Shown one piece after another: positions 3,984-62,033 of a DNA stretch of 64,000 bases. The translations under genes and the position numbers were made by a program. The notes beneath the pieces are model-generated. The model ran no database searches. It had not been told where the DNA came from and saw nothing but the letters and a program-made list of their open reading frames with translations. Numbering within the stretch: the first letter of the stretch is position 1; each line of letters begins with the position of its first letter. Origin of the DNA: Yinghuangia seranimata (GTDB lineage: Bacteria > Actinomycetota > Actinomycetes > Streptomycetales > Streptomycetaceae); assembly GCF_029953285.1 (NCBI RefSeq), contig NZ_JASAOI010000023.1, positions 62,001 through 126,000 on the forward strand, given 5' to 3'.

Positions 3984-4817
3984 ATGGCAGAGAGCGCGAG
4001 CCGACCCAGCTCACTGATCAACACGATCTACGGCGCGTTCGTCCGCCCGTGCGGCGGCTGGATCTCGATCGCCGACCTCATCACGTTGATGGCCGAGCTG
4101 GACGTCGACGGCCCCGCGGTGCGCTCCGCCATCTCCCGCCTGAAGAAGCGGGGAACGCTGGTCGGCGAACGCCGCTCCGGCACCGGCTACCGGCTCAGCC
4201 CGGCCATGGGCCCGGTGTTCGACGAAGGCGACGCGCGCATCTTCGGCCACCTGGAGCCGGCCCGGCTCGAGGACGGCTGGGTCGTCGCGGTGTTCTCCGT
4301 CCCCGAGAGCGAACGCGCCGCCCGGCACCAGCTGCGCTCCCGCCTGACCTGGCTCGGCTTCGGCAAGGTCTCGCCCGGTGTGTGGGTCGCGCCGGCCCGG
4401 CTCCTCGACGCCGCGCGGCGCACCCTCACCCGGGTCGGACTCAGCGACTACGTCCACCTGTTCGCCGGCGACTACGCGGCGTTCTCCGAACTGCGCGGCA
4501 CGGTCGGCGAGTGGTGGGACTTCGCCGCCGTCGAGGAGCAGTACGCCCGGTTCACCGCGACGTACGGGCCGGTCGCCGAGGCGTTGCGCACGGGGGACGA
4601 GGTCGGCCCGGACGACGCGTTCCGCGGCTACGTGCCGATGCTGACCGAATGGCGGCGGCTGCCGTACCTCGACCCGGGCCTGCCGTCCGAGCTGCTCCCG
4701 GACGACTGGAACGCGGTCGAAGCCCGGCAGGTCTTCGTCCGCCTGCACGAGCGCCTCGCGCCGCCGAGTCTGCGGCACGTCGAAAAGGTGACGGGGCTGA
4801 CCGCGGCGGAGGCGTGA
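3984..4817 (+). CDS. PaaX-family transcriptional regulator
   Basis: 277 aa, ATG at 3984 with GGAAAGG 6 nt upstream. The N-terminal winged helix (residues about 10-70; LDVDGPAVRSAISRLKKRG is the recognition segment) is followed by the central PaaX domain (WVVAVFSVPESERAARHQLR, LTWLGFGKVSPGVWVAPARL) and the C-terminal PaaX_C region (PYLDPGLPSELLPDDW). PaaX proteins repress aromatic-CoA catabolic operons and are released by an aryl-CoA effector. It lies at the end of the cluster on the same strand, so it is a plausible local repressor responding to salicylyl-CoA or gentisyl-CoA. The effector is inferred. Confidence 0.9.
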   Translation: MAESASRPSSLINTIYGAFVRPCGGWISIADLITLMAELDVDGPAVRSAISRLKKRGTLVGERRSGTGYRLSPAMGPVFDEGDARIFGHLEPARLEDGWVVAVFSVPESERAARHQLRSRLTWLGFGKVSPGVWVAPARLLDAARRTLTRVGLSDYVHLFAGDYAAFSELRGTVGEWWDFAAVEEQYARFTATYGPVAEALRTGDEVGPDDAFRGYVPMLTEWRRLPYLDPGLPSELLPDDWNAVEARQVFVRLHERLAPPSLRHVEKVTGLTAAEA

Positions 4818-5240: not shown

Positions 5241-7334
5241 ATGAGCGCAGCGCCCGGCGCCGGCGCCCCCGAAGAACTCCCCGCCGACCTCGCGGCGGTG
5301 CTGCTGGACCCGGACGGCAACGTCCTGCTCGCCAGCCCCGCCGCCCGGCGCCAGCTCGGCCAGCCGCTGCCCCCGGCCGCCGCCGAAGCACTGCGCGGCA
5401 TCCCCGGCCGCGGGCCCGGAGCGCGCGTCACCGTCCCCGGAGCGCACGGTCTCCTGCACGCCCGCACGCTCACCACCCCGATGTCCGAGCCCGACCCCGA
5501 ACGCGTCTTCACGGGTCCCCGCGCGCGGCTCGTCCTCCTGCTGCCCGCCGACCGCGCCGGCGCGGGGCTGCCCGGCGTCGACGTCCGCGACCGCGAACAC
5601 GGCCGACTCGCCCACGCCGCCGCCGTCGACACCGGATCGAGCCTCGACCTGGCCGACATCGCGCGCGCGTTCGTCGACGTCCTCGTCCCCGACTTCGCCG
5701 ACCTCGCCTCCGTCGACCTCGACGAATCAGTCCTCGCAGGCGACGAGCCCGCCCCGATGGTCGGCGCCGTCCAGCCGCAGTTCCGGCGCGCCGCGGTCGC
5801 CGCCCGCCCCGGCCGTGAATGGCCCGCCGCAATGCTCGACGTCGGCGACGCCCTGCCGCACTTCGACGAGAGCCCCATGCTCGCCCCGCTCGCCGAAGGC
5901 ATCCCCGTCGTCGCCACCGACATGGCCATGCTGCGCGCCTCGCTCGGCCTCAGCGGCGCCGTCCTCGACTCGATGATCCCGGCCGAGGCCGACTCCTCGA
6001 TGGTCGCCACCCTCCTCGCCCGCGGCCTCGTCCTCGGCAGCATCACCGTCTGGCGGGCCGCGCCCCGCGCCAAGTTCGACGAACGCGACGCCACGCTCCT
6101 CGCCGAAATCGCCTCCCGCGCCGCCCTCAGCGTCGACAACGCGCGCCGCTACACCCGCGAACACCGCACCGCCGTCGCCCTCCAACGCGCCCTGCTCCCA
6201 CGCGCCCTCAACCGCACCCCGGCCGCCCACACCGCCGGCACCTACCTGCCCGCCGAAGGCGAGGCCGGCGTCGCGGGCGACTGGTTCGACGTCATCCCGC
6301 TCTCCTCACTGCGCACCGCCTTCGTCGTCGGCGACGTCGTCGGCCACGGCCTCATGGCCACCGCGGCCATGGGCCGGCTGCGCACCGCCGTCCAGACCCT
6401 CGCCGACCTCGACCTCGAACCCGGCGAACTCCTCAGCCACGTCGACGACCTCGTCCTCAGCTACTGGCCCGAGCACGACCCCGACGACCCCACCGCCGAA
6501 CTCGCCGCCCAAGGCGCCACCGCCCAGTACGCCGTCTACGACCCCGCCACCGGCGGCTTCACCATCGCGAGCGCCGGCCACCCGCCGCCCCTCGTCGTCG
6601 AACCCGGCGCCCCACCGCGGTTCGCCAAGTTCTCCCCGGGCCCGCCGCTCGGCGTCGGCGGCATGCCGTTCGAATCCGTCGAACTCGACCTGCCACCCGG
6701 CACCCTGCTGGCCTTCTACACCGACGGCCTCGTCGAAAAGCGCGACGCCGACCCCGGCGAAGGCATGGCCGCCCTCGCGCGAGCCGTCGACACGTACCGC
6801 GACCTGCCGCTCGAAGACCTCGGCCGGGCCGTCGTCGCCGAACTCGCCCCGCCGCGCGACGACGACATCGCCCTCCTCCTCGCCCGCACCGGCCGCCTCG
6901 GCCCCGACGCCATCGCCGAATGGGAACTCCCCGCCGACCTCGCCCTCGTCTCCCGCGCCCGCGAACTCGCCCGCGACCAGCTCACCGCCTGGGGCCTCGA
7001 CGACCTCGCCTACGCCACCGAACTCGTCGTCAGCGAACTCGTCACCAACGCGATCCGCTACGCGGGCGGGCCCGTCCACCTGCGGATGCTCCGCGACGAG
7101 GTCCTCGTCTGCGAGGTCGGCGACCCGAGCAACACCCAGCCCCGCCTCCGACGGGCCCGCGAAACCGACGAAGGCGGCCGCGGCCTCTTCCTCGTCGCCC
7201 AACTCACCAGCCGCTGGGGCAGCCGCTACCGCCGCAACGGCAAAACCATCTGGACCGAACAAGCCACCACCCCGGCCCCGCCCGCAGAGTCGCTGTCGGA
7301 AGCGGACCTCCTGGCCGCCTTCGACGACCTGTGA
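5241..7334 (+). CDS. PP2C/SpoIIE-type serine phosphatase with GAF and HATPase (anti-sigma kinase-like) domains
   Basis: 697 aa. ATG at 5241 follows AAGAAGG; upstream extension to 5010 is arginine-rich and unlikely. Order: a short PAS-like N-terminus (LDPDGNVLLASPAARRQLG), a GAF-like region (about 120-310), the SpoIIE/PP2C phosphatase (QRALLPRALNRTP, VAGDWFDVIPL, VVGDVVGHGLMATAAMG, YTDGLVEKR, DDDIALLLAR), and a C-terminal HATPase_c domain of the RsbW/SpoIIAB type (ELVVSELVTNAIRYAGG, DEGGRGLFLVAQL). Streptomycetes carry dozens of such proteins, which tune sigma factors by dephosphorylating anti-sigma antagonists and/or phosphorylating them. No partner is encoded next door. The input signal is unknown. 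Confidence 0.9.
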   Translation: MSAAPGAGAPEELPADLAAVLLDPDGNVLLASPAARRQLGQPLPPAAAEALRGIPGRGPGARVTVPGAHGLLHARTLTTPMSEPDPERVFTGPRARLVLLLPADRAGAGLPGVDVRDREHGRLAHAAAVDTGSSLDLADIARAFVDVLVPDFADLASVDLDESVLAGDEPAPMVGAVQPQFRRAAVAARPGREWPAAMLDVGDALPHFDESPMLAPLAEGIPVVATDMAMLRASLGLSGAVLDSMIPAEADSSMVATLLARGLVLGSITVWRAAPRAKFDERDATLLAEIASRAALSVDNARRYTREHRTAVALQRALLPRALNRTPAAHTAGTYLPAEGEAGVAGDWFDVIPLSSLRTAFVVGDVVGHGLMATAAMGRLRTAVQTLADLDLEPGELLSHVDDLVLSYWPEHDPDDPTAELAAQGATAQYAVYDPATGGFTIASAGHPPPLVVEPGAPPRFAKFSPGPPLGVGGMPFESVELDLPPGTLLAFYTDGLVEKRDADPGEGMAALARAVDTYRDLPLEDLGRAVVAELAPPRDDDIALLLARTGRLGPDAIAEWELPADLALVSRARELARDQLTAWGLDDLAYATELVVSELVTNAIRYAGGPVHLRMLRDEVLVCEVGDPSNTQPRLRRARETDEGGRGLFLVAQLTSRWGSRYRRNGKTIWTEQATTPAPPAESLSEADLLAAFDDL

Positions 7335-10306: not shown

Positions 10307-10833
10307 ACCCGGAGCGGCTTCACGCAAGACCGGTCTGCACCCCGGCGTGCCGAGACGCCGAGACGCCGAGAGGGACGACTGCACGTGCTCCTGTCTGGGC
10401 CGATCCCACGGCGGTGGCGCGTGGTTGGACGGCTGGACAGACCTCGGAGAGATCGCCATCGGACACGAGCGCCGGACGCGAATCACGTACGAGGTGCGAC
10501 GCGGCTGGACGCACCACCTCCTCGCCGTCGATCCCGTCCGGCCGGGATTCGCCTGCCGCGTGACCCGCACCCGGACGACGTAGCCCCGTCCGGGCGGCTG
10601 TTCCGCGCCGACCGGGACCGTCCTCGTTGTCCGGCGTGGCCTCCAGAGAGGCAACGGCACCGGCGCTGACTCCACGCCCCCGGCCCAGTCACCTCAGCTA
10701 CCCGGTCTCGGCAGGAGCTGTTCGAGGACGAAGAAGCCCTCTGGGGAATCGCGTGACCGTCGACAGGCCGCGTTCAGCAGCTCTCGAGCTCCTGAGAACG
10801 GACGGGTTCGCGGCCGCTGGATAGCATCGCGAG
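10307..10833. other. Gene-poor stretch, 527 nt
   Basis: Holds only a C-terminal gene fragment (see 10443-10583) and the upstream region of the next gene. TAGCAT at 10822-10827 lies 6 nt before the GTG at 10834, the spacing of a -10 box for a leaderless transcript. Confidence 0.4.
10443..10583 (+). pseudogene. C-terminal relic related to the protein encoded at 19972-20412
   Basis: The reading frame ends in LLAVDPVRPGFACRVTRT, almost identical to the end of the membrane-anchored protein encoded on the other strand at 19972-20412. The match is also strong in DNA for about 75 nt around the stop codon. Upstream of this tail the residues (EIAIGHERRTRITYEVRRGW) are only distantly similar, and no signal or membrane segment is present, so this is a truncated paralogue. 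Confidence 0.55.
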
Positions 10834-16082: not shown

Positions 16083-16303
16083 GTGGCCGCGTCGCGGCCA
16101 GCGACTCCCGAAGTCGTCGACAAACGACTCCCGTTCCCGGGCTCCGGTCCATTTGTTGTGGTCGCGTACGCAACGTGACGGCGATGACTCCCAACCTCGA
16201 AGGTGCTCCTCCGGAGTCTGCGGTTAGGCTCGCGGCATGACAACGCCATCTGTCCGCCCACGACCGGCCCTTGGGGCAACTTCGAGCCGCCCGAGCCGCT
16301 GAA

Positions 16304-16891
16304 ATGGCGGTCCACGAGTCCACGCGCGAAGCTCGACTGGCCGTCTTCTTGTCCACGGTGCGTCGCGGTGAGATCCGCACAGGCGTGGTGGTCTCGATCC
16401 ACAATTTCGGTGTGTTCGTCACCCTGGACGGGGACGCCAGCGGTAGCCACTCGGGGTTCATCGACTGCGCCGGACTGTCCTGGCGCTCCTTCGACCACCC
16501 GAGCGAAATCGTTGAAGTCGGCCTGCGGATACGGGCAGAGGTGCTCGACGTTGACTTTGGCCGCGGCCAGGTCAAGCTGTCGCTGAAGGCGACCGTCCCC
16601 GACCCCTGGCGGCGGTACGCCGCGACGGTCCACGTCGGGGAGATCGTGGCCGGGACAGTGACCAAGCTCGTCCGGATCGGGGCGTTCGTCCGGGTCAGCG
16701 ACGGCATCGAGGGCCTGATTCCGTGCGCCGAGCCGGCGGATCATGCGGTGACCGCGCCGGAAGAACTCCTCAGCGAGGGCGAGGAGGTCCGTGTCGCGTT
16801 CGCCCATATCGACTTCGAACGACGCCGCTTGCTCCTGTCCCTGCGCCAAGCCCAGGCCGCGCTCCGAGCCACGCTTGGTCTTCACGAGTAG
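16304..16891 (+). CDS. S1 RNA-binding domain protein (two S1 domains)
   Basis: 195 aa from ATG 16304; TTG 16271 in frame is another option and no good Shine-Dalgarno sequence decides. Two OB-fold S1 motifs: VRRGEIRTGVVVSIHNFGVF...HSGFIDCAGLS...EVLDVDFGRGQVKLSLKA, then VGEIVAGTVTKLVRIGAFV...GIEGLIPCAE...AFAHIDFERRRLLLSLRQ. This is a small free-standing protein, much shorter than ribosomal protein S1. It probably binds RNA in the cytoplasm. Its last 10 nt overlap the end of the ISL3 relic on the other strand. Confidence 0.8.
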   Translation: MAVHESTREARLAVFLSTVRRGEIRTGVVVSIHNFGVFVTLDGDASGSHSGFIDCAGLSWRSFDHPSEIVEVGLRIRAEVLDVDFGRGQVKLSLKATVPDPWRRYAATVHVGEIVAGTVTKLVRIGAFVRVSDGIEGLIPCAEPADHAVTAPEELLSEGEEVRVAFAHIDFERRRLLLSLRQAQAALRATLGLHE

Positions 16892-17297
16892 AGCAATACG
16901 CGTTTGCGGAGGAGCTCGAAACCGGCACGGCCGAACATCTGGCGCTTGAGCATTTTGATCCGGTCGACGTGGCCTTCGACGACGCCGGAATTCCACGGCG
17001 CACCGCCTTGAGTCGGATCCTGTCGCTCTCGGCCAGCGCGTCGGGGTGAGTGAGCAGCCAGCAGGTCACGGCGCGGGCTGACGGCGCCCGCGGCCCGACG
17101 GGCTGGGGCTTGCCGCGCAAGGTCCGGCGGACGTAGTTGCGGACGTTGCCGTAGCCGTCGGGTGGCCCTGCCCTTTGATCTCCTCCCAGAGCCGCCAGGC
17201 ATTGGTGCAGCCGTCCTGCCACCGCTGGTCCAGGTAGGGCTTGTAGGCGTCGAGTTCGGTCGCTCGGCTTTGCCACTGTCGGCGTACACACGTATGT
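16882..17297 (-). pseudogene. Old ISL3-family transposase relic
   Basis: Minus-strand pieces in different frames: WQSRATELDAYKPYLDQRWQ, then DGCTNAWRLWEEIKGQG, then GYGNVRNYVRRTLRGKPQP, and after an internal loss WNSGVVEGHVDRIKMLKRQM, FGRAGFELLRKRVLLYS. The last strings are the conserved C-terminus (with the catalytic E) of ISL3 transposases. The N-terminal zinc-finger and the first catalytic D are missing, and the frame changes at least twice. The younger complete ISL3 element begins directly to its right. Confidence 0.8.
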
Positions 17298-17329
17298 GGC
17301 TCTGGCAAGATTTTCGTAGCCGGAGATCA
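17298..17329. repeat. ISL3 terminal inverted repeat, left
   Basis: 32 nt, exact reverse complement of 19652-19683; outer end GGCTCTGGCA. The preceding 8 nt (17290-17297, ACGTATGT) are the left target-site duplication. Confidence 0.95.
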
Positions 17330-17424
17330 AACCCGGCGTCTGCTCTTGGGGCGAGTTGTGTGAGTGGGGTTGCCTGTCGGTGGGGGTTCGGTGCGGTGGT
17401 GGACCGAGGTGCCATGTGTCGAGG

Positions 17425-17889
17425 TCAGCAAGTGACTGTTACGGAATCCGGCTTGGGAAACGGCATCATCTCCCACCCGAGTGGCCAGTCCCCTTCGCGT
17501 AGTTCTGACTCCTCGACTTCCAGAACCCGGGGAATCCGCCGGGTCCACCACCCGTCCTCGTCCTCGGGCCGCCCGGGCCACGGAACCGTGACCTGACGGA
17601 AGATCTCGTCACTTCGGTCGAGTTCGGGTTGTCTGAGCGCCTGGACGCGGGCGGGGAGCCGTGGCCACACCTCTGCCAGGATGGTCCGGTACCGGATGTC
17701 ATGGTGGAACTCCGGCGCGCACCAGGAGTACGGCTCGTCCATCCCCTTCACAGTCAGTCTCCACCGTTCGATGAGCACGTTGAGGGTGGTCGGCTGCCCG
17801 TCGGCCGAGGTGCCGACAACGGCATCCACGGCGGCCTGCACGGCCTCGGCATCCGCGGCGCTCAGCGCGCACTCGGTCGCTTGATTCAT
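17425..17889 (-). CDS. Hypothetical passenger protein inside the ISL3 element
   Basis: 154 aa from ATG 17889; GAGGAG lies 11 nt upstream (complement of 17901-17906). Acidic, tryptophan-rich and not recognised: ALSAADAEAVQAAVDAVVGT, TTLNVLIERWRLTVKGMDE, YSWCAPEFHHDIRYRTILAE, then VPWPGRPEDEDGWWTRRIPR. No membrane segment and no DNA-binding motif. It lies between the left inverted repeat and the 3' end of the transposase gene on the same strand, separated from the transposase by 79 nt, so it can be read from the same transcript. It is not a known ISL3 accessory gene, so it is either cargo or a regulator of transposition. Confidence 0.7.
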   Translation of the reverse strand: MNQATECALSAADAEAVQAAVDAVVGTSADGQPTTLNVLIERWRLTVKGMDEPYSWCAPEFHHDIRYRTILAEVWPRLPARVQALRQPELDRSDEIFRQVTVPWPGRPEDEDGWWTRRIPRVLEVEESELREGDWPLGWEMMPFPKPDSVTVTC

Positions 17890-17968
17890 GTCTCGACTAT
17901 CTCCTCGTGGCCCGTGCGCCACCACCCTCTGCGGCCGGTTCGCGCGCCATGGGTGAGGAGGGTGAGGT

Positions 17969-19561
17969 TCACGTCGCGGTGGATACGCGGTCTGGGTACC
18001 GGCGGCGCAGGTGGGCGATGAGCACGACACGCTGACGCAGCAGAGCGATGCCCGCGCGGCCTGCCATGATCCGCTTCTGGAGTTTGACGTCGGTGATGCG
18101 GCCTTCGTTGACCCCGGAACTGTAGGGGCTGGTGATCCCCTGGACGACCGCGTCGTGGTCTTCGCGGAGCGCCTTCGCCAGGCTGGCGAAGGCCGGGAGT
18201 CGGCAGGCGGTGAGTTCGCTGAGCCAGCCCGACAGCGCAGCCGCGTCGCCGGCTTGGAGCATGGCCGCGAACCGGCGGACCAGCGTGTGCGCCCGGTCGA
18301 GTTCGGGGCAGTGGGCAAGCAGGCGGTGCAGCCGATCCTCGGTCTCCAGGCCGCGTCGTTCCGGGCTGGTGGCGATCCAGCGGGCGACCTCGCGCGGCGA
18401 CGGCGGGAGCTCGTGAGGCTCGGCCAGGGGCAGCCCGTCGCGCATCGGGGCGACGGCCATCTTCACGCGCTGATAATGCCCGGTGTAGCCCTTGGCGGTG
18501 AGCTCCTCGTGCAGGACCTTCGCGCTGTGTTCGCCTTCCTCCCAGCGTTGCCGCAGGTAGCCGAGGTAAGGGTCGAGGGCGGTCGGGGTGCGCGGCCGGC
18601 GTCGGCGTACGACGTCCTGCCAGGTGGCGGCTGCTGCGTACTTGCGCACGGTGCGCCAGTTCAACCCCAGTTCCCGGGCGGCGGAGTTGTAGCTGCGGCC
18701 GGTGTCCGTGAGCGCGTGCACTGCGTCGAACAGCCGCTTCGCGTGCCTGCGGGCCGGCGTGTCCGCCGACTCCAGGGGACCGGGCACGGAACGCGGCGGA
18801 GCTGCGGGTTCGGTGTCGACGACGGCCTCGTCCAGGCAGCTGCGGTGCGCGGCGGCGACCTGCTGGACCCGTTTCGACAGGCCCTGCCAGAGGTGGAAGC
18901 GGTCGCTGACCTGCACCGCGTCCGGGGCACCGACGGTGACGCCCAGACGATAGGTCGGCGAGCCGTCCCGGCAGACGACTTCCACGCCGGGATGCTCCCG
19001 CAGCCAGGCGGCCAGTGTCTCGGCGTCGCGGCCTTCCCACAGCGTCACCGGCAGCCGGGTGTCCGCGTCGACCAGCAGCGTGCCGTACACGTCGCCGTAC
19101 AACGCGAAGTCGTCCACCCCCAGCACACGGGGCGCCGTGACGGGCGGGAACGGCACCCGCATCAGGTGGAACAGCACACTGGTGCGCGACAGGCCCGCAT
19201 GCACGACGCGCAGCATCCGCGCGCCGCCCCGGCCGGCGAGCAGCACACCGACCGCCTCCACCAAATGCTGCAGCAACGGCGTCCGGCGCTGGTAGCGCAC
19301 GGTCAGCCCGGGCACCTGCTCGGCGAACGTGACCCTCGAACAATCCGTGGTCTCGCAGTACAGGCGCCGCACCGACAGGTCGATCCGCACCGGCCGGCCA
19401 CCGAGCGCGACATCCGCGAGGCTGCGCACGTACCGGCTGTGCACCCAGCCGCTCGCCACACCGCAGCCCGGGCACGCAACGCAGACGCCGTCCCGGGTCT
19501 CGGCCCGGACGGCCACCACCGGACCGACAGCATCGACCGATGCCACGACCACGGTCGCCAA
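17969..19561 (-). CDS. ISL3-family transposase
   Basis: 530 aa counted from TTG 19561. The N-terminal zinc finger is present (CVACPGCGVASGWVHSRYV and YCETTDCSRVTF), followed by the DDE core (VLGVDDFALYGDVYGTLLVD, VVCRDGSPTYR, QVSDRFHLWQGLSKRV) and the end SGVNEGRITDVKLQKRIMAG with the catalytic E. The conserved family N-terminus 'LFPHL' seems to be present just upstream in frame (EFEELLPHLATVV), but no ATG/GTG/TTG serves it. True initiation may be at a CTG near 19596, or a nucleotide is missing there. It is otherwise full length and probably active. Confidence 0.93.
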   Translation of the reverse strand: MATVVVASVDAVGPVVAVRAETRDGVCVACPGCGVASGWVHSRYVRSLADVALGGRPVRIDLSVRRLYCETTDCSRVTFAEQVPGLTVRYQRRTPLLQHLVEAVGVLLAGRGGARMLRVVHAGLSRTSVLFHLMRVPFPPVTAPRVLGVDDFALYGDVYGTLLVDADTRLPVTLWEGRDAETLAAWLREHPGVEVVCRDGSPTYRLGVTVGAPDAVQVSDRFHLWQGLSKRVQQVAAAHRSCLDEAVVDTEPAAPPRSVPGPLESADTPARRHAKRLFDAVHALTDTGRSYNSAARELGLNWRTVRKYAAAATWQDVVRRRRPRTPTALDPYLGYLRQRWEEGEHSAKVLHEELTAKGYTGHYQRVKMAVAPMRDGLPLAEPHELPPSPREVARWIATSPERRGLETEDRLHRLLAHCPELDRAHTLVRRFAAMLQAGDAAALSGWLSELTACRLPAFASLAKALREDHDAVVQGITSPYSSGVNEGRITDVKLQKRIMAGRAGIALLRQRVVLIAHLRRRYPDRVSTAT

Positions 19562-19651
19562 GTGCGGTAGCAGTTCCTCGAATTCATCAGCACACGAACC
19601 CAGCCTGACTCAACGGGCCACGCCCACGGCACAGGGAAGCCCGCCAACAGA

Positions 19652-19683
19652 TGATCTCCGGCTACGAAAATCTTGCCAGAGCC
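19652..19683. repeat. ISL3 terminal inverted repeat, right
   Basis: 32 nt, exact reverse complement of 17298-17329. The following 8 nt (19684-19691, ACGTATGT) are the right target-site duplication. Confidence 0.95.
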
Positions 19684-19971
19684 ACGTATGTCCCCAGCCA
19701 CGTACGGATGAACGCGGCCAGTTGTCGATGCAGTGAGTTCCAGTGCTCGTCACGCTGCTGTATGAGGCAGTTGGCGGAGGTGACTCGCTGTGGTCTTGGA
19801 TCCGCGTCGGTGGTTGGAGCTTCGTCGTTTCCGGGGTCTGCTCGGAGTCCGAGGCGTCGGGGTTCGGGTCCTAGACGGAGGTCACCAGCAGGCTCGGAAG
19901 TGAAATGGACACCGCTCGCCCGACACCCGACGGTCGACGGCGCTATGGAGCCGGGGCCGCCCCGGACCGGG

Positions 19972-20412
19972 CTATGTCGTCCGGGTGCGGGTCACGCGGC
20001 AAGCGAATCCCGGTCGGACGGGATTGACGGCCAGGAGATCCGCAGACCAGGCCTTCGTCTCCTTGTAGTGGACCGTGACGAAGGGACGCACCGTGTCCAG
20101 GTGCGTGCCGTCGGCGGCGGTCAGCTCGACGGTGACGCGGTAGGAAGCGATCCTGCCAGGATTGGCGACGGTGCCCGTCACGTGTACGGTCCGCGGGTCC
20201 TGGTCGGAGAGCGTGCACGAGGTGACGTGCACATCGTCTATCGGCGAGGGGCTGTCGAGGCTTGTGGCGACGAGGACTCCGACCGCAACGGCGAAGACCG
20301 CGACGACCCCGACGAGACGCCAGGCCGACGGCTTCGGCGCGTCGGGATCGGGCGGCGGCGGTACCCAGCGGGGCATCTCCGGTCGGTAATACGGCCCAAC
20401 CTTGCTGCCCAC
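19972..20412 (-). CDS. Membrane-anchored extracytoplasmic protein, FxLYD-like
   Basis: 146 aa from GTG 20412; ATG 20376 is a second option, but GGAG directly abuts it. A proline-rich cytoplasmic start (WVPPPPDPDAPKPSAW) is followed by one transmembrane helix (LVGVVAVFAVAVGVLVATSL) and a beta-sandwich-like ectodomain: CTLSDQDPRTVHVTGTVANP, ASYRVTVELTAADG, VTVHYKETKAWSADLL. The 'TGTVANP...YRV.VE' pattern resembles FxLYD domains found in actinobacterial surface proteins. There are two cysteines, one near each end of the domain. A relic of a related gene lies inverted at 10443-10583. Function unknown. Confidence 0.65.
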   Translation of the reverse strand: MGSKVGPYYRPEMPRWVPPPPDPDAPKPSAWRLVGVVAVFAVAVGVLVATSLDSPSPIDDVHVTSCTLSDQDPRTVHVTGTVANPGRIASYRVTVELTAADGTHLDTVRPFVTVHYKETKAWSADLLAVNPVRPGFACRVTRTRTT

Positions 20413-60644: not shown

Positions 60645-62033
60645 ATGACCTCGCAGGCCACCTCGGCAGCCGGCACCGACGGGGCGGGCTCCGACCTCGC
60701 CCGCCGCGTCGCCGGACTCATGCCGCGCGCCAAGCAGGACCTCGCCACCCTGGTCGGCTTCAGGTCCGTCGCCGACCCGCGCCAGTTCCCGCCCGAGGAG
60801 TGCGAGAAAGCCGCCCGCTTCGTCGCCGACGCCTTCCGCGAACTCGGCTTCGCCGACGCCCGGCCCGAGAAGACCCCCGACGACAGCTACGCCGTCGTCG
60901 GCCACCGGCCCGGCCCGCCCGGCGCGCCGACCGTCCTCCTGTACTGCCACTACGACGTCCAGCCGCCGCTCGACGACGCCGCCTGGACCACCCCGCCGTT
61001 CGAACTCACCGAACGCGACGGACGCTGGTACGGGCGCGGCGCCGCCGACTGCAAGGGCAACATCGCCATGCACCTCACCGCGCTGCGGGCCCTCGGCGAC
61101 GACATCCCCGTCTCGCTGCGCCTGGTCGCGGAGGGCTCGGAGGAGCAGGGCACAGGCGGGCTCGACGAGTTCGTCCCGCGGCACCCCGAACTGCTGCGGG
61201 CCGACGCGATCCTGGTCTGCGACACGGGCAACGCGGCCGTGGGCGTACCGACGTTGACCACGACGCTGCGCGGCGTCGCCAACGTGGTCGTGGAAGTCCG
61301 GGCGCTCAAGAGCGAGGTCCACTCCGGCATGTTCGGCGGCCCGGCGCCCGACGCCCTCGCCGCGCTGATCACCATGCTCGCTTCGCTCCGCGACGAGAAC
61401 GGGGCCACCGCGATCGACGGACTCGCCCACGACCAGGTGTGGGACGGCGAGGCCTACGACGCCGACCAGTTCCGGGCGGACGCCGGCGTGCTCGACGGCG
61501 TCTCGCTCGTCGGCGGGGGAGCGGTCGCCGACCTGGTGTGGGCCCGGCCCGCGGTGACCGTGCTCGGCATCGACTGCCCGCCGGTCGTCGGGTCCACGGC
61601 CGCCGTGCCCGCGGTCGCCCGGGCCCGCGTGAGCCTGCGCGTGCCACCGGGCACGGACCCGGAACAGGCGCTGGCGAAACTGACCGACCACCTGAAGGCC
61701 CACGCGCCGTGGGGCGTACGGCTGGAGTTCACGCCGGAGCAGAGCGGCTCGCCGTTCAAGGCCGAGATGGGCGGGCCGGCGTACCAGGCGCTCTCCGAGG
61801 CGCTCTCCGAGGCGTACGGCCGGCCGATGACCACCGTGGGGCAGGGCGGGTCCATCCCGCTGTGCACGATCCTGCGGGACACCTTCCCGGACGCGGAGAT
61901 CGCCCTCATGGGCGTCGAGGAGCCCAAGTGCCTCATCCACGCGCCCAACGAGAGCGTGGACCCGGCCGAGATCGAGCACATGGCGCTGGCCGAGGCCCTG
62001 TTCCTGCGGAAGTACGCGGCCGCGAAGAGCTGA
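60645..62033 (+). CDS. M20-family dipeptidase
   Basis: 462 aa, ATG 60645 with GGAAGGA at 60632-60638. LLYCHYDVQPPLDDAAWTTP (metal His, catalytic Asp), RGAADCKGNIAMHLTALRAL (bridging Asp), LVAEGSEEQGTGGLDEFVPR (catalytic and metal Glu), DAILVCDTGNAAVGVPTLTT; dimerisation lid VRALKSEVHSGMFGGPAPDA; C-terminal LIHAPNESVDPAEIEHMALA with the last metal His. Complete family member related to cytosolic non-specific/beta-Ala dipeptidases. Third gene of the permease operon. Confidence 0.92.
   Translation: MTSQATSAAGTDGAGSDLARRVAGLMPRAKQDLATLVGFRSVADPRQFPPEECEKAARFVADAFRELGFADARPEKTPDDSYAVVGHRPGPPGAPTVLLYCHYDVQPPLDDAAWTTPPFELTERDGRWYGRGAADCKGNIAMHLTALRALGDDIPVSLRLVAEGSEEQGTGGLDEFVPRHPELLRADAILVCDTGNAAVGVPTLTTTLRGVANVVVEVRALKSEVHSGMFGGPAPDALAALITMLASLRDENGATAIDGLAHDQVWDGEAYDADQFRADAGVLDGVSLVGGGAVADLVWARPAVTVLGIDCPPVVGSTAAVPAVARARVSLRVPPGTDPEQALAKLTDHLKAHAPWGVRLEFTPEQSGSPFKAEMGGPAYQALSEALSEAYGRPMTTVGQGGSIPLCTILRDTFPDAEIALMGVEEPKCLIHAPNESVDPAEIEHMALAEALFLRKYAAAKS

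Follow-up and report, generated by a model that had tools for sequence, protein, structure and literature searches.

The stretch analysed here (64,000 nucleotides, positions 62,001 to 126,000 of contig NZ_JASAOI010000023.1 of Yinghuangia seranimata, assembly GCF_029953285.1; referred to as the window) contains an insertion sequence (IS) of the ISL3 family that carries an additional gene and is flanked by sequences of an IS21-family element (Table 1). Inverted repeats of ISL3 elements start with GG, and the elements usually, though not by definition, carry a transposase gene alone. The repeats of the window element start with GG, are identical in 32 of 32 bp and enclose a unit of 2386 bp with an exact 8-bp direct repeat at its borders; re-derivation of the coordinates confirmed the perfect repeats, the length and the duplication, as given in a preliminary description of this DNA. 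A repeat finder gives 40 bp at 95% for the ends, because the run continues into the duplication. According to PMC7643977, 8 bp is the classical duplication length of ISL3. The transposase, P0002, is of the ISL3 DDE type with an N-terminal zinc ribbon (Pfam DDE_Tnp_ISL3, E=1.1e-22; Zn_ribbon_ISL3, 1.2e-7; NCBIfam ISL3 NF033550, E=2.8e-87), and the open reading frame (ORF) of P0001 follows in the same orientation, 79 bp past the transposase stop. Overall, the window element is a complete, recently inserted ISL3-family member of a clade with long transposases.

The window element is the sole full-length copy found in the genome assembly. A decayed relative, L010, is 90% identical and lies on another contig of the same genome. 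Three further stretches with 87–93% identity are common to this contig and the window (e.g. window 10516-10769 and 19956-20118), including part of the gene to the right of the window element, and the L010 locus resembles a mosaic of rearranged copies.

Table 1. Coordinates of the ISL3 element, its parts and its surroundings in the window.
Feature	Coordinates	Strand	Remarks
Complete ISL3-family element	17298..19683	.	2386 bp; perfect inverted repeats and 8-bp duplication
Inverted repeat, cargo side	17298..17329	+	32 bp
Inverted repeat, transposase 5' side	19652..19683	-	32 bp
8-bp target duplication, left copy	17290..17297	+	ACGTATGT
8-bp target duplication, right copy	19684..19691	+	ACGTATGT
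ISL3 transposase P0002	17969..19561	-	530 amino acids (aa), TTG start; Pfam and NCBIfam matches
Tandem helix-turn-helix domain, P0002 residues 281-375	18437..18721	-	Related to IS21 IstA end-binding domain
Cargo gene P0001	17425..17889	-	154 aa; intact ORF; relatives not within intact ISL3 elements
21-bp tip, first terminal repeat of IS21-family element	17277..17297	+	TGTCGGCGTAC + 10 bp; includes left duplication copy
IS21 remnant on the far side of the insertion (same element as the tip)	19690..19854	+	Second terminal repeat and istA start
Older decayed ISL3 transposase	16885..17290	-	Two stretches similar to P0002

Insertion at the inner edge of IS21 tips

The surroundings of the window element were compared with those of its relatives. 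The set consisted of 32 complete elements, i.e. the window element, L044 and those in the 20 best genome-match regions and 15 plasmid regions fetched from a search of 394 genomes of the family and of named plasmids. As the best matches were fetched, the fractions describe this sample. The tblastn search of the plasmids with P0002 was made twice, with different row sampling. L159 (the same insertion as L151) and unfetched places were dropped before counting, as were the one-ended loci L010, L106, L112, L113, L114, L117, L121, L122, L127, L128, L134, L137 and L146. A tip was scored as TGTCGGCGTAC with up to 2 mismatches plus 10 bp abutting the inverted repeat.

At least one inverted repeat was abutted by a tip in 31 of the 32 elements, which places the insertions in the terminal inverted repeat of another transposon. 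Wherever the motif TGTC[GC]GCGTAC was present beside an ISL3 repeat, the distance was exactly 10 bp, except on one side of L115 (9 bp). Tips were present on both sides in 18 elements (tip/tip). In ten others a tip on one side was paired with a second, 12-bp motif on the opposite side, GTTCATCCGTAC when read towards the element (tip/second-repeat); this motif showed at most 3 mismatches in 8 of the 10 and was degenerate and assigned by eye in L099 and L103. Three elements had a tip on one side only, and one (L098) had neither tip nor second motif. A palindromic host target with an 8-bp duplication was rejected, since the inner 8 bp differ between the two sides in all 18 both-sided elements.

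Tip and second motif together (up to 1 mismatch) were found in 64 of the 394 genomes, and the control gave 0 hits. The 13 such loci that were fetched are IS21-family elements or derivatives, two of them short (795 and 849 bp), with IstA- and IstB-like ORFs in most among those listed. In L195, the sole copy scanned, the two proteins match Pfam rve (5.3e-13), as expected for IstA, and IstB_IS21 (2.4e-106); the window keeps only a fragment of istA. An exact 5-bp duplication was present in 8 of the 12 two-ended loci, and the ends (TGT...ACA, with GTAC motifs 24 bp apart) have the TG...CA termini and repeated sites of IS21. An assignment of the outer element as Tn7/Tn5053-like was replaced by IS21 after IstA and IstB had been found. 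Tip plus second motif is an IS21 end, and the ISL3 element therefore lies between the first and second IS21 terminal repeats.

The window copy belongs to the one-sided class. Directly beyond the insertion the similarity to IS21 starts again, and it extends to 19854. Over this segment blastn gave 75% identity to the IS21 element L197 in a 171-column alignment, and IstA residues 9-27 are recognizable at 19787-19843 (tblastn, 95% over 19 aa). The preliminary description had the element landing next to a relative. The decayed ISL3 transposase in the left flank is real (two stretches similar to P0002, 16885-17040 with 46% identity over 54 aa and 17162-17290 with 42% over 43 aa), but the direct host is an IS21 end, entered 21 bp in. 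The second relic stretch overlaps the IS21 tip by a few bases, and the IS21 element probably entered the older ISL3. The order of events would then be the ISL3 relic, entry of IS21, and insertion of the present ISL3 element into the IS21 tip, the order of the first two steps being the one that we infer.

Some elements with the targeted IS21 ends hold extra single genes (L199:402-1049; L194:2451-3033): one of them, of 3087 bp, has a methyltransferase gene, and another, of 2736 bp, has an ORF that matches nothing in Pfam and whose listed start is outside the element. A further unit of 795 bp (L201:302-1096) has both IS21 ends, an exact 5-bp duplication and one unrelated 211-aa ORF in place of any istA or istB ORF, as though it had been mobilized in trans. 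Left of the relic ISL3, an ORF at window 16271-16891 has, by eye, two putative S1-type RNA-binding repeats.

Duplications and origin of the both-sided elements

The two classes of elements differed in their duplications. An exact 8-bp duplication at the ISL3 ends was found in 6 of the 10 tip/second-repeat elements and in none of the 18 tip/tip elements; in 10 of the latter, the 5 bp immediately outside the tips are exactly duplicated. At 12 other offsets tried, 0 or 1 such duplications were seen, and shuffling of the right flanks (20000 times) gave a mean of 0.67 and a maximum of 5. IstA remnants were present on the inner side in four of the tip/second-repeat elements (window, L097, L107 and L155), and no IstA or IstB similarity was found beside the 16 tip/tip elements examined (L115 and L044 were left out). 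In several tip/tip elements the left and right tips differ in the way that IS21 left and right ends do.

On the simplest reading, tip/tip units would form when ISL3 copies in both ends of an IS21 element recombine, with ISL3 replacing the IS21 interior. Alternatively, a single ISL3 copy at one IS21 end might make an adjacent deletion that extends to the other end. Formation of tip/tip units parallels a proposal in PMC7643977, by which recombination between two ISL3 copies deletes the intervening DNA.

The tip/tip units could also be mobile as such, moved in trans by the IstA and IstB proteins of IS21 elements. This would agree with the exact 5-bp duplications outside the tips in 10 of 18 units, with the similar tip pairs of L151 and L158 (∼97% identical by tree distance), and with the L201 unit described above. 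However, ISL3 bodies that are ∼93% identical have quite different tips (L153 versus L151 and L158), and unequal tips are found in either orientation around ISL3 (L109 and L150), a pattern that fits repeated local replacement. Moreover, the first terminal repeat alone is kept, whereas the IstA complex contacts two, as described for IS5376 in PMC10122671. Mobility in trans is possible, but on balance we doubt it.

The same placement in other IS21 groups

ISEc38 resembles the window element in having a long transposase with an IstA-like domain and in lying 21 bp inside the ends of an IS21-family element, IS100. It differs in protein sequence (∼31% identity to P0002), inverted repeat and IS21 target. 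In Escherichia coli 536, an ISEc38-like copy (annotated as a pseudogene) lies between TGTCAACGACGGATGAAAAGT, the left 21-bp tip of IS100, and TGTCACGAACAGTGCAAAAGT, the right 21-bp tip with 2 mismatches. Of the 60 matches listed (5389 records matched), 32 were ISEc38-like copies covered to at least 92%, and each of these keeps the left tip. In E. albertii, ISEc38 has an IS100 tip on one side and, on the other, the interior of IS100, including istB and istA. That ISEc38 adjoins the IS100 interior as a rule in E. coli was not supported, as among the 60 matches listed only H168 was full-length through the junction.

A Streptomyces relative, L207 (45% identical), is bordered by the tips TGTCGGCGACGGGTGAATCGT and TGTCGGCGGCGGTTGAATCCT and a duplication CAGGG (by eye). 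A third IS21 group with such tips was therefore predicted. The tip pattern was found in 16 of 111 genomes, and 24 of the 30 loci fetched continue as IS21-type sequence (counted by eye), several with IstA similarity nearby. In three loci (L264, L266 and L271) an ISL3-like inverted repeat starts directly after base 21, with ISL3 transposase similarity in L264 and L266; the remaining three are unclear. As judged from these sequences, the same placement appears in three IS21 groups: the window type, IS100 with ISEc38-like elements, and the third group.

These data bear on two other explanations of the insertion site. If the 21-bp TGTC tip were the true end of the ISL3 elements, with two-part ends and a 5-bp duplication, IS21 would have no role. 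The tips on both sides in 18 of 32 elements, the 5-bp duplications outside 10 of these and the left tip kept in all 32 of the listed high-coverage ISEc38-like copies are in line with this possibility. On the other hand, tips occur without ISL3 in IstA/IstB elements that have 5-bp duplications of their own, and several both-sided elements have unequal tips that correspond to the left and right tips of IS21, which are unequal too. Furthermore, the one-sided elements with IS21 interior have 8-bp duplications at the ISL3 repeat itself, and L098 has an 8-bp duplication and no tips. We consider it unlikely that the tip is an ISL3 end. Alternatively, ISL3 may insert widely, with only the harmless insertions in other ISs surviving and no active targeting. 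On general grounds insertions into ISs should harm less, and one element of the main set lies at an ordinary site. Such survival would predict insertions anywhere in IS21, istA and istB included, whereas a single nucleotide position is used in 31 of 32 elements (one side of one is off by a base) and the same point recurs in three IS21 groups. We regard selective survival as very unlikely.

The IstA-like domain of the transposase

P0002 residues 281-375 match residues 10-103 of IS5376 IstA (PDB 8q4d/8b4h) with E=2.7e-7. In PMC10122671, IstA residues 1-39 and 55-104 are described as two helix-turn-helix domains contacting the terminal repeats, whose spacing in IS5376 is 23 bp. The NCBIfam IS21 transposase model matches P0002 residues 284-374 (E=5.7e-15); the score of 55.6 bits is below the whole-protein cut-off of 160, as expected when only one domain is present. 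A one-sequence comparison with IstA of the targeted IS21 group gave 33% identity (E=2e-10). All 10 long ISL3 transposases tested matched the IS21 model at this position, as against none of the 6 short ones. When the ends of four short ISL3 elements were examined by eye, 8-bp duplications at ordinary sites were seen in three and tips in none. Judging by the similarity, the IstA domain of IS21 is either the source or a sister of this domain. Recent capture confined to the Streptomyces group was rejected, as ISEc38 and a Skermanella element have the domain too.

The second recognition segment, YQRVK, is identical in the window-type transposases and the targeted IstA, and the ISEc38 domain scores 107 against IS100 IstA and 50 against the other IstA. 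The pairing is uneven in other elements (see below), and co-variation of the domain with the targeted IstA is therefore only suggestive.

We infer that the IstA-like domain of the long ISL3 transposases targets insertion into IS21 ends. The grafted domain would hold the ISL3 transpososome on the IS21 terminal repeat and so set the insertion site. This explanation as a whole is probably correct; the arrangement itself, a long-clade ISL3 element placed at the inner edge of a 21-bp IS21 tip, with an IstA-like domain and a slot for interchangeable single genes (see below), is shown by the sequences. The wider proposal, that an ISL3 clade of Actinomycetota and Proteobacteria uses an IS21 end-binding domain to enter IS21 tips, replace IS21 and ferry genes, is one that we favour by a small measure.

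Several observations weigh against this interpretation. The exact 8-bp duplication is missing in 4 of the 10 tip/second-repeat elements and the 5-bp duplication in 8 of the 18 tip/tip elements. Two elements are at ordinary sites with 8-bp duplications: L098, which has a transposase of the clade, and L218, from another family, in which the IstA-like domain is present. The flanks of L208, L209, L212, L213, L219 and L254 are unclear or unresolved. No 5-bp duplication flanks the tips of the E. coli 536 copy, and at the E. albertii copy 4 bp of IS100 are missing and an 8-bp duplication is absent. Finally, the domains of the window element, L153 and L147 score 97, 114 and 104 against the targeted IstA and 94, 114 and 129 against IS100 IstA; those of L207 and L266 score 79 and 73 against IstA of their own target group and 131 and 122 against IS100 IstA.

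The cargo slot

The preliminary description noted a co-oriented 154-aa ORF of unknown function and suggested that it might be cargo or a transposition regulator. The ORF is present and intact, and P0001 gave no Pfam or NCBIfam match up to E=1; its AlphaFold model is poor (mean predicted local distance difference test score, pLDDT, of 59.8). The window element thus departs from the usual gene content of ISL3 and has a passenger gene inside the inverted repeats, as in passenger-carrying ISL3 elements of the ISPst2 type.

Five of the 32 complete elements have one extra gene each, in all cases between the transposase stop and the distal inverted repeat. Apart from the window element these are L097 (2335 bp, cargo without Pfam match), L098 (2403 bp, Imm35, E=2e-13), L105 (2460 bp, a putative lipoprotein by eye, no Pfam match) and L148 (2111 bp, annotated as DUF2283). 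The five cargo proteins showed no mutual match at E≤0.1 in pairwise comparison. None of the other 27 elements, some of which have exactly the same 32-bp inverted repeats, offers space for cargo: 23 are 1734–1744 bp, enough for the transposase only (some are frameshifted), and four (L044, L115, L116 and L161) are deleted or rearranged. A DUF2283 gene is also found in the slot of the decayed L010 (1.7e-13). In a tree of the transposase region the carriers appear in three places (window with L010; L097 with L098 and L148; L105 among cargo-free elements), and sister elements, such as window and L010, differ in cargo. L010 and L148, though on distant branches, have DUF2283 proteins with 73% identity.

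The 154-aa gene is captured cargo. Relatives with identical ends lack this ORF, which the preliminary description would have taken as a sign of a secondary local insertion; cargo recurs in the same slot, however, and is therefore a repeated property of the clade and no one-off event. That P0001 is a transposition regulator belonging to the element is highly improbable. Its gene is co-oriented with and close to that of the transposase, as a regulator gene might be, but most complete elements (27 of 32) lack the space for it, and the genes in the four remaining carriers are unrelated. In addition, its closest relatives lie outside intact ISL3 elements, and L010, the sister of the window element, has a different gene in the slot.

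Cargo may be acquired when a more distant second inverted repeat is used, or when elements that have the 32-bp repeats in common recombine. L105 has ∼730 bp in place of ∼10 bp just inside the repeat when compared with the cargo-free L102 (91.6% identical). In L097, a truncated second inverted repeat (from its position 15) is left between cargo and transposase; this remnant, seen in one element only, suggests cargo capture between two ends. In the deleted ISL3 element L116 the distal inverted repeat is present twice in tandem, at a distance of 247 bp (1931 and 2178), and this arrangement looks like the end-duplication step expected before cargo capture.

Relatives of the cargo protein

At E≤0.001, 35 of the 394 genomes contained relatives of P0001, a count that takes in the own genome and weak partial matches. 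Two named Streptomyces genomes and 8 plasmid records had relatives as well; the phage collection contained none. The fetched loci of these homologues (flanks of 1.5–6 kb) had no related ISL3 transposase at E≤1e-4, the own-genome loci and L044 excepted. In L044 (plasmid NZ_CP109481), an internally deleted ISL3 remnant of 539 bp (4144-4682) with IS21 tips on both sides lies ∼1.2 kb from a P0001 homologue (5905-6381). The P0001 gene and its homologue in L079 differ at 33, 40 and 68 first, second and third codon positions, respectively, over 154 codons. No constant partner gene was seen by eye among the homologue neighbourhoods listed. P0001 is most likely a small accessory protein outside the transposition machinery. 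P0001 itself matches no known immunity family of polymorphic toxins in Pfam or NCBIfam. There is weak support for a protein of the immunity-gene type, a role guessed because of the company that such cargos keep: a single gene separates a plasmid-borne P0001 homologue from an Imm21 immunity gene, and Imm35 is the cargo of L098.

Relation to known systems and implications

Insertion into the terminal inverted repeats of another transposon is a feature that the window element has in common with IS4321 and IS5075 of the IS1111/IS110 group, which target Tn21-family repeats (PMC8269217, referring to Partridge and Hall 2003). Those elements use a DEDD transposase, and target choice in IS110/IS1111 is described as RNA-guided (PMC11187229, PMC11208160). 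In contrast, the transposase of the window element is a DDE enzyme of the ISL3 family and includes a protein domain related to the end-binding domain of its target; the element is found in IS21, and no Pfam or NCBIfam match to IS110/IS1111 transposases was obtained. From IS21 (IS100, IS5376), the host of the insertion, it differs in its ISL3 catalytic domain and in having no IstB. ISPst2 and CLJ-ISL3 are ISL3 elements with passenger genes and 8-bp duplications (PMC7643977, PMC6305408); as described in these sources they have two passengers (a permease and an ArsR-type regulator), a length of 2985 bp, other inverted repeats and ordinary genes as sites. The window clade, unlike ISPst2, has one gene per element, with different genes in sister elements. 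A search of open-access titles and the first parts of abstracts, with ISfinder and subscription papers outside it, gave no report of ISL3 in IS21 ends or of an IstA domain in ISL3.

If the proposal is correct, it would provide a protein-only route by which one IS finds another, by wearing the end-binding domain of its target, and this route would stand next to the RNA-guided case of IS110/IS1111. It would explain the usual sites of an ISL3 clade, including the ISEc38-like copies common in E. coli, and one way in which IS21 elements get broken. It also makes a modular question testable, namely whether exchanging the ∼95-residue domain would direct an ISL3 transposase to a different IS21 group. 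Finally, the cargo slot indicates that single host genes, an immunity gene included, can move in elements barely larger than an IS.

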